Shown: positions 9,451 to 23,208 of the stretch, in pieces
Position numbering within the stretch: the stretch's first letter is position 1
Layout of the letters: each line of letters begins with the position of its first letter
Assembly (NCBI RefSeq): GCF_000001735.4
Contig: NC_003071.7
Coordinates: 9,479,151-9,543,150 of the forward strand
Origin: Arabidopsis thaliana
Taxonomy: Eukaryota; Streptophyta; Magnoliopsida; Brassicales; Brassicaceae
Length of the DNA stretch: 64,000 bases
Direction of reading: 5' to 3'
Notes under the pieces: generated by a model
Seen by the model: the letters and a program-made list of their open reading frames with translations, nothing else
Told to the model about the DNA's origin: nothing
Databases searched by the model: none
Translations under genes and position numbers: made by a program

Positions 9451-11833
9451 ATGGATACTTTAGCTTCAAACTCTTCGGATCTCACGACCAAGTCAAGTCT
9501 CGGAATGTCGTCGTTTACCAACATGTATCTCCTCACAACGCTTCAAGCCCTTGCGGCCCTTTGCTTCTTGATGATTCTCAACAAAATAAAGTCATCTTCA
9601 CGAAACAAGAAGTTGCATCCTCTCCCGCCAGGACCCACCGGTTTTCCAATTGTTGGAATGATTCCGGCGATGCTTAAAAACCGTCCAGTTTTCCGGTGGC
9701 TCCACAGCCTCATGAAGGAGCTTAACACGGAGATAGCTTGTGTGCGTCTAGGAAACACTCACGTGATCCCTGTGACATGTCCTAAGATTGCACGTGAGAT
9801 CTTCAAGCAACAAGACGCACTCTTTGCGTCAAGACCACTCACTTATGCTCAAAAGATTCTCTCTAACGGCTACAAAACCTGCGTGATCACACCGTTTGGC
9901 GAACAATTCAAGAAGATGAGGAAAGTGATCATGACAGAGATTGTTTGTCCAGCGAGACACCGTTGGCTACACGACAATAGAGCTGAGGAAACCGATCACT
10001 TGACCGCTTGGCTCTACAACATGGTTAAGAACTCTGAACCAGTCGATCTCCGTTTTGTTACGAGGCATTATTGTGGAAATGCAATCAAGAGGCTTATGTT
10101 CGGGACGAGGACGTTCTCGGAGAAAACCGAAGCCGATGGTGGACCGACTTTGGAAGATATCGAGCATATGGATGCTATGTTCGAGGGGTTAGGGTTTACG
10201 TTTGCGTTTTGTATATCGGATTATCTACCGATGCTTACGGGATTGGATCTAAACGGACATGAAAAGATTATGAGAGAATCCAGTGCAATTATGGATAAAT
10301 ATCACGATCCTATAATTGATGAGAGGATTAAGATGTGGAGAGAAGGTAAGAGAACTCAGATCGAAGATTTTCTAGACATTTTCATCTCTATCAAGGACGA
10401 AGCTGGCCAGCCTTTGCTTACCGCTGATGAAATCAAACCAACCATTAAGGTACATAGCTTTTTAATATACTTTTCATATGTTACATTTATACATATTTAA
10501 AAAATTAAACCAACTGTTACGTTCGATATATAATAATATATGACATAGTATTTATATATAGTATCGACGAGTAAATAGTTTGACATTCTTTGAGTTGAAA
10601 TAGTGGAGATTTCTAATATTCTTTAGAAAAATATGCGTTGAAAGAGTAATATTTCACTTTTGGCAGAGAAAATGCCATAACATCTATTACAAAGTATCTT
10701 TGCTAAAAAAAACAAGGCAATCCACCAATATCCGTCAGATTCAGACGTATTTTTTGTTTAATATAAGAAAGTTAAATATGGTGAAAGCGAAACATAACGT
10801 CAAATATCCATGTTGACTCGTGAGTCATGAGTCCACTCATGGAAAAAGGGTTTGGCTTTTTTGGAGTTAAAATGGCAGAAACTTATTAGGAAGGAAATAG
10901 TGGAGACACAACATCTATAAAATAAAAGAAAAAAAAAAACTGATTGTGACTCTATTTTGCTGTCCACAAATTAAAAGAACAAAAACAATTGTCTTAGCAA
11001 TTTTGGGAGAAAAGGTTAAACACCAAACAATCTATATCCAACAAAATCTTATGTGTAGCATAAAGCATGTTGACCACGAGTCCATGCATAGAACAGTAAA
11101 CCGATAAGAATCTTTATCTTTTTGGTTATAAGATAAGAATCATTTATTAATTGTCAACTTGCTTAAACTAATGAAAATATTTTACATATTAATTTTATAG
11201 GAACTTGTAATGGCGGCGCCAGACAACCCATCAAACGCCGTGGAATGGGCCATTGCGGAGATGATAAACAAACCGGAGATCCTCCACAAAGCTATGGAAG
11301 AGATCGATAGAGTCGTCGGAAAAGAAAGATTCGTCCAAGAATCCGATATACCAAAACTTAACTATGTTAAAGCTATTATCCGAGAAGCTTTCCGTCTTCA
11401 TCCCGTCGCCGCCTTCAACCTCCCACACGTGGCACTCTCTGATACGACCGTCGCAGGTTACCATATTCCTAAAGGAAGTCAAGTTTTACTTAGCCGTTAC
11501 GGTCTTGGTCGTAACCCCAAGGTTTGGTCTGATCCACTTAGCTTCAAACCAGAAAGGCATCTCAATGAGTGTTCGGAAGTGACTTTGACGGAGAATGATC
11601 TCCGTTTTATCTCGTTTAGTACCGGAAAGAGAGGATGTGCTGCTCCGGCGTTAGGTACGGCGATAACGACCATGATGCTAGCGAGGCTTTTGCAAGGGTT
11701 TAAGTGGAAACTAGCAGGAAGTGAGACACGTGTCGAGCTTATGGAATCGAGTCATGATATGTTTCTTTCGAAGCCTTTGGTGTTGGTCGGAGAATTGAGA
11801 TTGTCGGAGGACCTTTACCCAATGGTGAAGTGA
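9451..11833 (+). CDS. CYP79B3: Tryptophan N-monooxygenase CYP79B3
   Basis: This cytochrome P450 converts tryptophan to indole-3-acetaldoxime, the entry step to indole glucosinolates, camalexin and an auxin branch, at the ER membrane. Two coding exons, 9451-10449 and 11201-11833, joined at a phase-0 GT-AG intron, give 543 residues, the expected CYP79B length. Visible features are an N-terminal membrane segment (about 23-42), the proline-rich hinge LPPGPTGFP, the CYP79-type I-helix APDNPSNA in place of the usual AGxDT, the ExxR triad (EAFR), the PERH motif and the heme loop [10 protein letters not shown] with Cys479. The start at 9451 is preferred because it gives the known N-terminus MDTLASNSS; the open frame upstream lacks another good ATG. 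The protein closely resembles CYP79B2, its duplicate on chromosome 4. A decayed partial copy lies downstream. Confidence 0.97.
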
Positions 11834-12536: not shown

Positions 12537-13303
12537 TTGATCTTGTTTGGTACTGGAAAGAGAGGATGTGCTTCTCTGGCCTTAGGCATGGTGATAACCA
12601 CCATGATATTTGTGAGGCTTTTGCAATGCTTTAAGTGGAAATTAAACTAGCAGATTGTGAGACACTGTTGAACCAAGAATTCACACAATATATTTGTTTA
12701 AAAAAGGGAAAAGAAATCTAATCAATTCTCTTGCTGTTGATTTGGTCTAAAACTTGATTCAACGAGATTAGAGATTGCTTTGAAAACAAGTTAGGGTTTG
12801 CTAAAGAACAATAAATAATATTAAGTTTTTTTTGTATTAAGTTGCATATCCTTTGAATAGAGGACAAATTCCCTCTATTTAATTATACTACTAAAAGACG
12901 GTTCAGCGATAAACTCAACTTCCTTACTCTTCGAGTTTGAATCTTTGATTTTTGTTCGCTTCTCAGAATAGGTAGTTTTACTTTCTTACGAGTTTAGAAG
13001 TCGGTTAAGCGACCTCCCAAACGGGAAACAGGCCAAAGGCGACCTGTTATTGGGGTTTTGCTCACCAGCCCATTAACATGCTTCGTCGGGATTCTCCGGT
13101 CTTTCCGAACTGTTTAGTTTTTTTTATTTGAATCCTTCTCTGTTTAGGTCAGAGATGTTGGAGAGTGTTTAACCCTGCACTAACAAACACATGTCGAGCT
13201 TATGGAATCGAGTCTTGATATAATTCTTTCGAAGCCTTTGGTTATGGTTGGAGAATTGAGATTGTCGGACAGCCAGATGATCTTTACCCAATGGTCATCG
13301 TAA
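12537..13303 (+). pseudogene. CYP79B3 3'-end pseudogene, split by a solo LTR
   Basis: Two pieces match the end of the CYP79B3 coding exon. The first (12537-12665) begins at the heme-loop codons (GTACTGGAAAGAGAGGATG) and runs to the GAGACAC that precedes the RVELMES codons. The second (13191-13303) resumes at ATGTCGAGCTTATGG and continues to the CTTTACCCAATGGT near the C-terminus. Only about the last 75 codons are represented. The copy carries substitutions, a small insertion before the CTTTACCC segment, and frame-breaking changes such as the stop in AAATTAAACTAG. It is a partial tandem duplication of the neighbouring gene, about 700 bp downstream of it, and cannot encode a P450. Confidence 0.9.
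12666..13185. mobile_element. Solo LTR inside the P450 pseudogene
   Basis: A 520-bp block interrupts the pseudogene exactly between two stretches contiguous in CYP79B3. It starts TGTTGA and ends CTAACA, the TG...CA inverted termini of an LTR, and is flanked by near-identical 5-bp repeats, GACAC on the left and AACAC on the right, consistent with a target-site duplication. There is no internal coding region, so this is a solo LTR left by recombination between the two LTRs of an inserted element. Copia-type is likely from size and the 5-bp duplication, but family is not certain. The insertion is younger than the gene duplication. Confidence 0.8.
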
Positions 13304-13728
13304 AATGTATGGCAACACACGTTGGAAGTAATGGAATTATACAAGTTATTGATTGTGAACGAAACCTATTCCAATTTTAATTAGAGTTAAAGATTGATCC
13401 ATGGTATATCGTGGAACGTTATTTTTACTAAAAAATTAAAAAAAAAATATTTTAATAAACATTATCTATATATATAATCTATTCGAGAGGCATATATAAT
13501 TTGGATCTTATACATTTAGCGTGTGTAAATTACGTATTATTGTATATTATTGTATGTTGTTTGTTGTATATTGGAGTATAATTGAAATTATCTATGTAGA
13601 TTTTCCAAATCTCTAAATTAATAAGTCGACTATAGAAAATAAATAATGTTTGGCAATAAATATTACGAAAATAAAGAAATAATTATATTATTCGACTTTT
13701 TTTTTTTTTTTTTCAGCAATCAAATCTA
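13304..13728. other. Intergenic, AT-rich
   Basis: No gene. A T run at 13698-13714 lies just past the end of the minus-strand ORF that follows. Several ATTGTAT-type short repeats occur at about 13535-13580. Confidence 0.5.
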
Positions 13729-14805
13729 TTATATCATAAAAAGTTTTACAAGATATATAAACCACTCATATACAACCATTGACACAAATAAAAGAAATTG
13801 ATAACAATTTCGATAAAGAAGTGGAATTGACCATGCTTGCCGATCGGAAGCCTTACAGGCTAACAGATAAAATCTGTTACGTCCCTCCTTTACATACTCA
13901 TAATTGGCTATCACCATATAGATGAAACTCCAAAATGCTTTTCGCATTACTTTAGTTAAAAGAAAAACCTGAATTGTTGCTTGATATGATTCTGCTTCTT
14001 GTCTTTTGAAACTCAATATGATATGCTGGAAACACCTAACGCATCGTTGCCTATTTGTGATCTTGATTTCTCCTTTCATTGCAGTTAAATTTTCCAACAA
14101 AGAGAAAGAGAGAACATCACTATCACAGTCACTTGAGGCCATCTTCCGTCCCATCACGCTCGTGTCTTCTTTGGGTTTATACCAAAGACAATTCAATTGA
14201 ATAAAACAATCTCCTTCCGGTAAAAGAGAGGCTTCCGTCCATGAAAAGTAATGAACATCATCATCCTCAAAGAAAATTGCCACCTTCATTTTAGAACCAT
14301 ATACTCCACATCCCATAGAATCAATAGACGAGAGCAAATATTCCAACCATGGTAATGAGTAAACATCACCATCTTTAGACAATGTTAGCGTCATAAGAAA
14401 TTCAATTCGATCTAGAATTCTGATTCCATCAAGTAGATTGATTCCTCCATTGATTCCGGGATCAAAAACCCATGTAGAAACTCCATACCATTGGGTAAGA
14501 GTACATTCACCGGTTAATAGCCGGAAATTCCACCGGCAATGAACAAGCACACCGGAAACAAACTTTCTATGAAGAAAGACAACTTGGTTCCATCGGATCA
14601 ACATTATAAGATGGGAGCGGCAACGGATGTGGGATGACTCTATCATATTAATCACTGAAATCCAAAAAAAATGAGAAATGAACCAAACCACGAATGGCCC
14701 CAAAAGCGTGACCAAAGTCTGATTTGGAATTGACAGGGTCAGTTCCTGAAATCCCACCGTCGCGTAGAGGCAAGTTACGTAGGTTTGACAATCTAGATTT
14801 GCCAT
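13729..14805 (-). CDS. Hypothetical protein, 358 codons
   Basis: This uninterrupted minus-strand frame starts with an ATG at 14805 (MANLDCQTYVTC). It probably corresponds to the predicted gene At2g22340. Hydrophobic stretches occur near residues 30-55 (LLGPFVVWFISHFFW) and at the C-terminus (FLLFVSMVVYEWFIYLVKLFMI). The central part is soluble-looking, with an acidic patch FFEDDDVHYFSW. I recognise no family. An intron is possible near the 5' end: the phrase TTTTTTTTGGATTTCAG occurs at about 14650, and if it is an acceptor the N-terminus would be shorter. The true exon structure is therefore uncertain. An open frame this long in AT-rich DNA argues for a real or recently real gene. Confidence 0.55.
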   Translation of the reverse strand: MANLDCQTYVTCLYATVGFQELTLSIPNQTLVTLLGPFVVWFISHFFWISVINMIESSHIRCRSHLIMLIRWNQVVFLHRKFVSGVLVHCRWNFRLLTGECTLTQWYGVSTWVFDPGINGGINLLDGIRILDRIEFLMTLTLSKDGDVYSLPWLEYLLSSIDSMGCGVYGSKMKVAIFFEDDDVHYFSWTEASLLPEGDCFIQLNCLWYKPKEDTSVMGRKMASSDCDSDVLSFSLLENLTAMKGEIKITNRQRCVRCFQHIILSFKRQEAESYQATIQVFLLTKVMRKAFWSFIYMVIANYEYVKEGRNRFYLLACKASDRQAWSIPLLYRNCYQFLLFVSMVVYEWFIYLVKLFMI

Positions 14806-14880
14806 TATTAATTACTGAAAGTATAAAATTGTACAATAATTAGAGGAAATAAAACAACTAAATGGAGAAACGACAATGGC

Positions 14881-14920
14881 CGACGCCGGAGAGGCCGACG
14901 CCGGAGAGGCCGACGCCGGC
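14881..14920. repeat. GC-rich 15-bp tandem repeat
   Basis: The unit CGACGCCGGAGAGGC is repeated 2.67 times without change. It lies inside a short plus-strand frame (14862-15059) that would read ERPTPERPTPA, but nothing else supports that frame as a gene. It is a sharp GC island close to the start of the minus-strand ORF at 14805. Confidence 0.8.
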
Positions 14921-16892: not shown

Positions 16893-17953
16893 ATGGGACT
16901 GTTTTATCAGAGGATTTGGCGAGTAATGGCACCGGAACGAGTCCGTGTTTTTCTCTGGTTAGTGGTGCAGCAAGTGATCATAACTAATGTGGAAAGATAT
17001 CGAAGACACTTGAGTGATACGAGGGTGTGTCAGATTTGTCAAGGCGGGGAGGAGACGATTCTACATGTTCTCCGCGACTGTCCCGCAATGGCAGGGATAT
17101 GGAGCCGGTTAGTCCCTCGTGATCAAATACGACAATTCTTCACTGCTTCTTTGCTGGAGTGGATCTACAAGAACTTACGGGAACGTGGATCATGGCCGAC
17201 GGTGTTTGTAATGGCAGTATGGTGGGGATGGAAATGGAGGTGTGGCAACATCTTTGGCGGGAATGGTAAGTGTAGGGACCGTGTTAAGTTTATTAAGGAT
17301 TTGGCGGAGGAAGTGGCGATAGCGAATGCTTTTGTGAAGGGGAATGAGGTGCGGGTGAGTAGAGTTGAGCGGTTGGTGTCTTGGGTATCGCCGGAAGATG
17401 GTTGGGTAAAGTTGAACACGGATGGGGCTTCGCGGGGTAATCCGGGGTTTGCAACGGCGGGTGGGGTTTTACGGGATCATAATGGAGCGTGGATTGGAGG
17501 TTTTGCGGTTAATATAGGTGTTTGTTCCGCACCCTTGGCTGAGTTGTGGGGTGTCTACTATGGGTTATTCATCGCTTGGGGGAGGGGAGCTCGGCGGGTT
17601 GAATTAGAAGTAGACTCGAAGATGGTGGTTGGGTTTCTCACGACAGGGATTGCGGATTCTCATCCCTTGTCATTCCTATTACGCTTGTGCTATGACTTTT
17701 TATCGAAGGGCTGGATAGTCCGAATCTCTCATGTGTATAGGGAAGCTAATCGTCTTGCTGATGGATTAGCGAACTATGCTTTCTCGTTATCCCTAGGTTT
17801 GCATTTGTTGGAGTCTAGACCCGATGTTGTTAGTTCTATTTTGTTAGATGATGTAGCGGGGGTTTCGTACCCGAGACATGTCCAAGTGTAATTTTTTTAT
17901 TTTCTTTTAATAAAACGGGAGACGCAGTCTCCCTCATTCTACCAAAAAAAAAA
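16893..17953 (+). mobile_element. 5'-truncated LINE (L1-type) with intact RNase H ORF
   Basis: An uninterrupted frame of 332 codons (16893-17891) carries the C-terminal end of a plant non-LTR retrotransposon polyprotein. It has a zinc-binding reverse-transcriptase-associated region (CQICQGGEETILHVLRDC) and then an RNase H fold with all four acidic residues visible in context (LNTDGASRGNPG, AELWGVYYGL, EVDSKMVV, ANRLADGLAN). A short 3' UTR and an A run at 17944-17953 end the element. The reverse transcriptase and endonuclease are absent, as in a 5'-truncated insertion. It corresponds to the predicted gene At2g22350. The frame has not decayed, so the insertion may be young or the domain may be retained. 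Confidence 0.85.
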
Positions 17954-22922: not shown

Positions 22923-23129
22923 TGACATTGAGCTATCACAAAATCTCTCAATTAAAATCGTAAATATATTCTCAACAAGACCAAATCCGAAATTGGAAAA
23001 ACTAACGAAAGCTTCCTAAATCGTCCTCGGGAGCGAATCTGAGATTTTTTAACACCGGAGAATTTTAGCTAGTTACTAGAATCACTTGTGTAGTTGTTAT
23101 ATAGTAGTTAGCTGTAGATAAAGCAAGAT
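22923..23129. other. MED18 5' region
   Basis: The minus-strand leader of MED18 (about 22923-23080) faces the tRNA gene; a leader intron is possible but not defended. Confidence 0.4.
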
Positions 23130-23203
23130 GGCCTATTAGCTCAGTTGGTTAGAGCGTCGTGCTAATAACGCGAAGGTCACAGGTTCGATCCCTGTATAGG
23201 CCA
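23130..23203 (+). tRNA. tRNA-Ile, anticodon AAU
   Basis: The 74-base cloverleaf runs GGCCTAT...ATAGGCC plus discriminator A, with no encoded CCA needed. The acceptor stem is fully paired (7 bp). The D arm is GCTC/GAGC, the anticodon stem TCGTG/CGCGA includes one G-T pair, the loop CTAATAA places anticodon AAT at 23164-23166, and the T arm is ACAGG-TTCGATC-CCTGT. The internal promoters (A box TAGCTCAGTTGG, B box GGTTCGATCC) are intact. A T-rich stretch beginning at about 23209 can terminate RNA polymerase III. There is no intron. Confidence 0.97.
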
Positions 23204-23208
23204 TTTCG

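Follow-up and report, generated by a model that had tools for sequence, protein, structure and literature searches.

The window analysed here, a stretch of 64,000 bp from Arabidopsis thaliana (C2:9479151-9543150), carries on its plus strand a P450 gene of two exons at 9508..11833, which runs from an in-frame ATG to a stop codon and matches the Pfam p450 family in both exons (E 1.9e-21 and 2.2e-52). Following the initial annotation, which had already named it so, we take this gene to be CYP79B3 (At2g22330); its true start probably lies upstream of the ATG used here. Genome searches covered 119.66 Mb in 7 contigs, and the numbers of matches that they returned are lower bounds. They placed at C4:18526652 a paralogue (L010), likely to be CYP79B2, whose last exon is 84% identical to that of CYP79B3 along 634 bp.

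Approximately 710 bp downstream of CYP79B3, and in the same orientation, a second version of a 221-bp segment of its last exon (11606..11826, plus strand, delimited by local alignment) is present at 87% identity and in two pieces. A genome search with 12537-13303 returned two separate matches in the last CYP79B3 exon. The left piece, at 12537..12665 on the plus strand (E 3.5e-26, 81%), aligns locally with parent positions 11606-11729, and the right piece, at 13187..13295 on the plus strand (E 8.6e-27, 84%), with 11726-11826. The duplication of the gene end and the contiguity of the two pieces in the parent, both proposed in the initial annotation, are thus borne out. Of its coordinates, those of the left piece stand, whereas the right piece starts at 13187 and not 13191, and its homology ends at 13295 and not 13303. 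The parent coordinates of the two pieces overlap by 4 bp, ACAC, and these bases form the core of a target-site duplication described below. In comparison with CYP79B3, the left piece has an insertion of 5 bp and the right piece has 8 extra bp (6 + 2) near its end.

Over the 221 shared columns, 28 differences separate the copy from CYP79B3, 60 separate it from CYP79B2 and 46 separate the two genes from each other. Since the copy is nearer to CYP79B3 than to CYP79B2, it most likely originated in the CYP79B3 lineage, after the split of the two genes. A three-way comparison with CYP79B2 as the third sequence assigned 19 private changes to the copy, 5 to CYP79B3 and 37 to CYP79B2, with 4 sites differing in all three. 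By codon position (1/2/3), the private changes are distributed 6/7/6 in the copy and 8/3/26 in CYP79B2; the spread found in the copy points to neutral drift, without visible coding constraint. The copy is a frame-broken and apparently non-functional fragment of CYP79B3. Other P450 pseudogene fragments in Arabidopsis are likewise truncated and frame-broken beside their parent, but this one differs in being just 221 bp long. The 19 changes found only in the copy and up to 4 ambiguous sites, over 221 sites, correspond to roughly 0.09-0.10 per site; at a neutral rate of 0.7-1.5e-8 per site per year, the age of the copy would be, very roughly, 6-15 million years, close to the split between A. thaliana and A. 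lyrata.

The two halves of the copy are the immediate neighbours, on both sides, of a 520-bp block at 12666..13185 which reads TGTTGA...CTAACA. Read directly from the sequence, the block is flanked on the left by GACAC (12661..12665), identical to parent 11725-11729, and on the right by AACAC (13186..13190), which has one mismatch. The TG...CA ends and near-matching 5-bp flanks of the initial annotation are therefore as described, and the duplication agrees at 4/5 bases, with a single GACAC in CYP79B3 itself. In a survey of plant elements, 5-bp duplications were recorded in 93.4% (PMC6317226).

A genome search with the block recovered the block itself and at least 20 other places, with E values from 1.2e-35 to 4.1e-7; one further listed match (E 4.81) is best taken as chance. 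Sensitive alignment of the 20 listed places, among which the row labelled L030 is the place of L029, extended over block positions 1-520 in six cases, was nearly full in two (13-520 and 1-514) and partial in 12. Identity to these relatives is ~63-74%, and ~65% end to end against LTRs of ~512 bp, so the exact family is not fixed by a close sibling. Among the genome matches listed, none represents a second related LTR within 1 Mb of the block.

The most informative relative, L031 (C2:51500-60500), has two LTRs in the same orientation, 5.5 kb apart and 99.6% identical over 506 bp, and the block aligns over its full length (1-520) to L031 6676-7187 at 65%. This element is damaged: the outer end of its left LTR is altered, no target-site duplication was seen around the LTR pair, and part of its internal sequence is repeated beside it. 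Ten stop-to-stop pieces of the internal region contained no retrotransposon domain, with two weak matches far below the cut-off. Related LTR stretches occur at ~49.8, 52.7 and 58.2 kb of C2 (L031 and L023), together with repeated internal sequence, which suggests a tandem or recombined array of the LTR element. A Ty3/gypsy pol piece borders this region; it was rejected as part of L031, as all of it falls beyond that element except for 15 bp shared with the LTR edge. The open reading frames beside other relatives were also set aside, as they belong to host genes or other elements (PPR, RING, glutaredoxin, LINE, a P450 piece, DUF223) or are unmatched. Two further relatives are solo analogues of the block: L040, flanked by ATGTT on both sides (a perfect 5-bp duplication), and L039, flanked by ATAGG and ATAGA, with no second LTR in either 9-kb stretch.

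The orientation of the block can be read through its relatives. In L031, CCCCCTACCTGGCGCGCCA-AT immediately precedes the LTR as read on the plus strand, placing the primer site 2 bp from the LTR. A genome-wide count of the 14-base core of this site gives 20 places. In 5/20, ARAGORN predicted a tRNA-Arg gene with anticodon CCT ending at the core (exactly in four, one base beyond in one), and at the remaining displayed places, 14 of them distinct (the L051 row repeats the place of L050), the core is followed by CCA. The relatives thus have a primer-binding site for tRNA-Arg(CCU), matching the 3' terminus of this tRNA with its CCA and read on the minus strand, from which it follows that the sense strand of the element is the minus strand. 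Moreover, 7/8 relative LTRs tested have TATAAATAG on their minus strand, at position 297-298, and TATA[AT]A was found on the plus strand in none of the eight. The primer site preceding the LTR on the plus strand and the restriction of TATA[AT]A to the minus strand rule out a plus-strand LTR. In the block, the TATA-box position (12875..12887, minus strand) is interrupted, with TATAATTAAATAG in place of the TATAAATAG of the relatives. Through these relatives the sense strand of the LTR is shown to run antisense to CYP79B3, an orientation which the initial annotation did not contain.

The lineage of the element was approached through other elements with the same primer site. Half of the ten open reading frame pieces taken from them had a retrotransposon domain, among them Retrotrans_gag in L047, L043 and L044; the other five had no gag, RT or RNase H domain. 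L058 encodes RT_RNaseH and then an RNase-H-like RVT_3 domain, with RVT_1 below the Pfam cut-off. Copia had been considered for the 5.5-kb LTR pair of the relatives and was dropped, as the gag and RT/RNase H domains of elements sharing the primer site are of gypsy type. In the sections available from a classification of plant elements (Neumann 2019, PMC6317226), the arrangement seen in L058, in which another RNase-H-like domain comes after the RNase H, is that given for Ogre/Retand, and the Tat lineage (Ogre/Retand-like) resembles the present group in the tRNA-Arg primer site of the relatives and in the gag encoded by elements with that site. Unlike the Tat elements of those sections, the locus at 12666-13185 is without coding sequence and is linked to them by weak LTR similarity and the common primer site. 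The LTRs of the coding elements resemble the block weakly in L047 (57%, E 0.005) and L055 (E 0.033), and those of L043, L044 and L058 gave no match at E 0.1. Since these LTRs match weakly or not, the assignment of the element to Ty3/gypsy, with a fit to the Tat lineage, is made through its relatives and with moderate confidence.

With its TG...CA ends, near-perfect target-site duplication and end-to-end homology to LTRs, the block is supported as a solo LTR, on the minus strand, as the primer site and TATA box of the relatives indicate; the LTR identity claimed in the initial annotation is thus matched by genomic LTRs with the correct ends. It would be highly improbable for the block to be an insertion of another type (TRIM, MITE or filler DNA, for example). 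In favour of such a reading, no full-length relative above 80% identity is among the matches listed in two genome searches. Against it, the homology of the block extends from end to end of LTRs which occur as a pair enclosing 5 kb of internal sequence, next to a tRNA-Arg primer site, and its TG...CA ends are accompanied by a 5-bp target duplication in which one base differs. For A. thaliana, the accessible portion of Pereira 2004 (PMC545599) tabulates 1,237 solo LTRs, or about two for each complete element, and gives recombination between the LTRs of an element as the mechanism. Like those described there, the present one is a single LTR with no second found nearby, and nothing essential sets it apart; it sits inside a gene fragment. 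Because the two pieces are contiguous in the parent and the parent is without the block, copying came before insertion, unless the parent lost the block precisely. The proposed history would therefore begin with a 221-bp piece of the last CYP79B3 exon being copied ~710 bp downstream and drifting as a non-functional fragment. A Ty3/gypsy-like LTR retrotransposon on the minus strand would then have inserted into the copy, duplicating GACAC (5 bp), and recombination between its LTRs, a step that we infer, would have deleted one of them along with the body, so that the 520-bp solo LTR is what persists. This sequence of copying, LTR-element insertion and body loss to a solo LTR, which is the order first suggested for the locus and follows from the contiguity of the pieces together with the LTR match, is very probably correct. 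The manner of copying is another matter. That the fragment is the remnant of a longer, mostly deleted tandem duplicate of CYP79B3, and not a stand-alone insertion of 221 bp, is conceivable but doubtful. Its orientation and proximity to the gene are those of a tandem duplicate, and a simple tandem duplication would be expected to place the 3' flank of the parent after the copy; the match between that flank and the 3' flank of the copy (13296-14800) is weak, if slightly suggestive, with a score of 32 reached by 4/100 shuffles. Against such a remnant, anchored extension beyond the homology ends performed about as chance (its score was reached by 86/300 shuffles on the left and 207/300 on the right), and in local tests of shorter flanks the observed score was reached by 122/500 shuffles on the 3' side and 46/500 on the 5' side. 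The term tandem copy used in the initial annotation hence holds as far as a partial copy is concerned, and a strict tandem origin is unproven; the fragment may have arisen by repair-templated insertion or through the decay of a longer duplication.

No function is indicated, on the grounds of sequence, for either the copy or the solo LTR. An active role could be imagined, in which the LTR drives antisense RNA through the left piece and on toward the CYP79B3 3' end, or in which small RNAs from the copy tune the gene, and this must be rated as extremely improbable. The LTR sense strand does run antisense to CYP79B3, and 23 consecutive nt of the right piece are identical to the gene (13192-13214 vs 11731-11753); on the other hand, the LTR TATA box is interrupted, readout from the LTR would head away from the 23-nt run, which is on its opposite side, and the longest run of the left piece identical to CYP79B3 is 18 nt. 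There is equally the slightest of chances that the LTR acts, or once acted, as an antisense or small-RNA source dampening CYP79B3, in which case LTR-derived RNA would dampen the supply of indolic glucosinolates and camalexin through this gene. The copy and the solo LTR are better regarded as ordinary genome debris, which leaves the understanding of such loci unchanged. The presence of a tail-only copy near a P450 gene of a defence pathway, pointed out in the initial annotation, is real, and the link to defence looks incidental. Three events are nevertheless readable at one locus, which could be a dating marker beside a defence-pathway gene.

P450 nomenclature includes a CYP79B4P; no mention of CYP79B4P or CYP79B4 in Arabidopsis was found in the literature searched. 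The excerpted literature on pseudogenes, duplication and transposons around CYP79B3 and CYP79B2, including PMC3546934, PMC2383897 and PMC6671987, yielded no description of the copy, and the available part of PMC6671987 deals with a LINE at CYP82C2, a different locus. Farther along the window, an open reading frame of 358 aa at 13729-14805 on the minus strand has no Pfam match. The qPCR primers for At2g22340 in the consulted part of PMC3546934 map to 14610 and 14740, within this minus-strand frame, which rules out the copied fragment as At2g22340. A table of that source, as excerpted, records At2g22340 as a hypothetical protein with a change of -141.79 fold in agp6 agp11, a magnitude that may make it worth looking for an insertion or a difference between accessions at that locus. 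Upstream of the same minus-strand frame, some 70 bp from its start, positions 14878-14919 hold a tandem repeat in which the 15-mer GGCCGACGCCGGAGA recurs perfectly over 2.8 copies. An open reading frame of 332 aa at 16893-17891 on the plus strand has zf-RVT and RVT_3 domains, as a LINE-type element of which probably just the tail is represented. Finally, a tRNA-Ile gene with anticodon AAT was predicted by ARAGORN at 23129-23204 on the plus strand, where Rfam reports a tRNA at 23130-23203.
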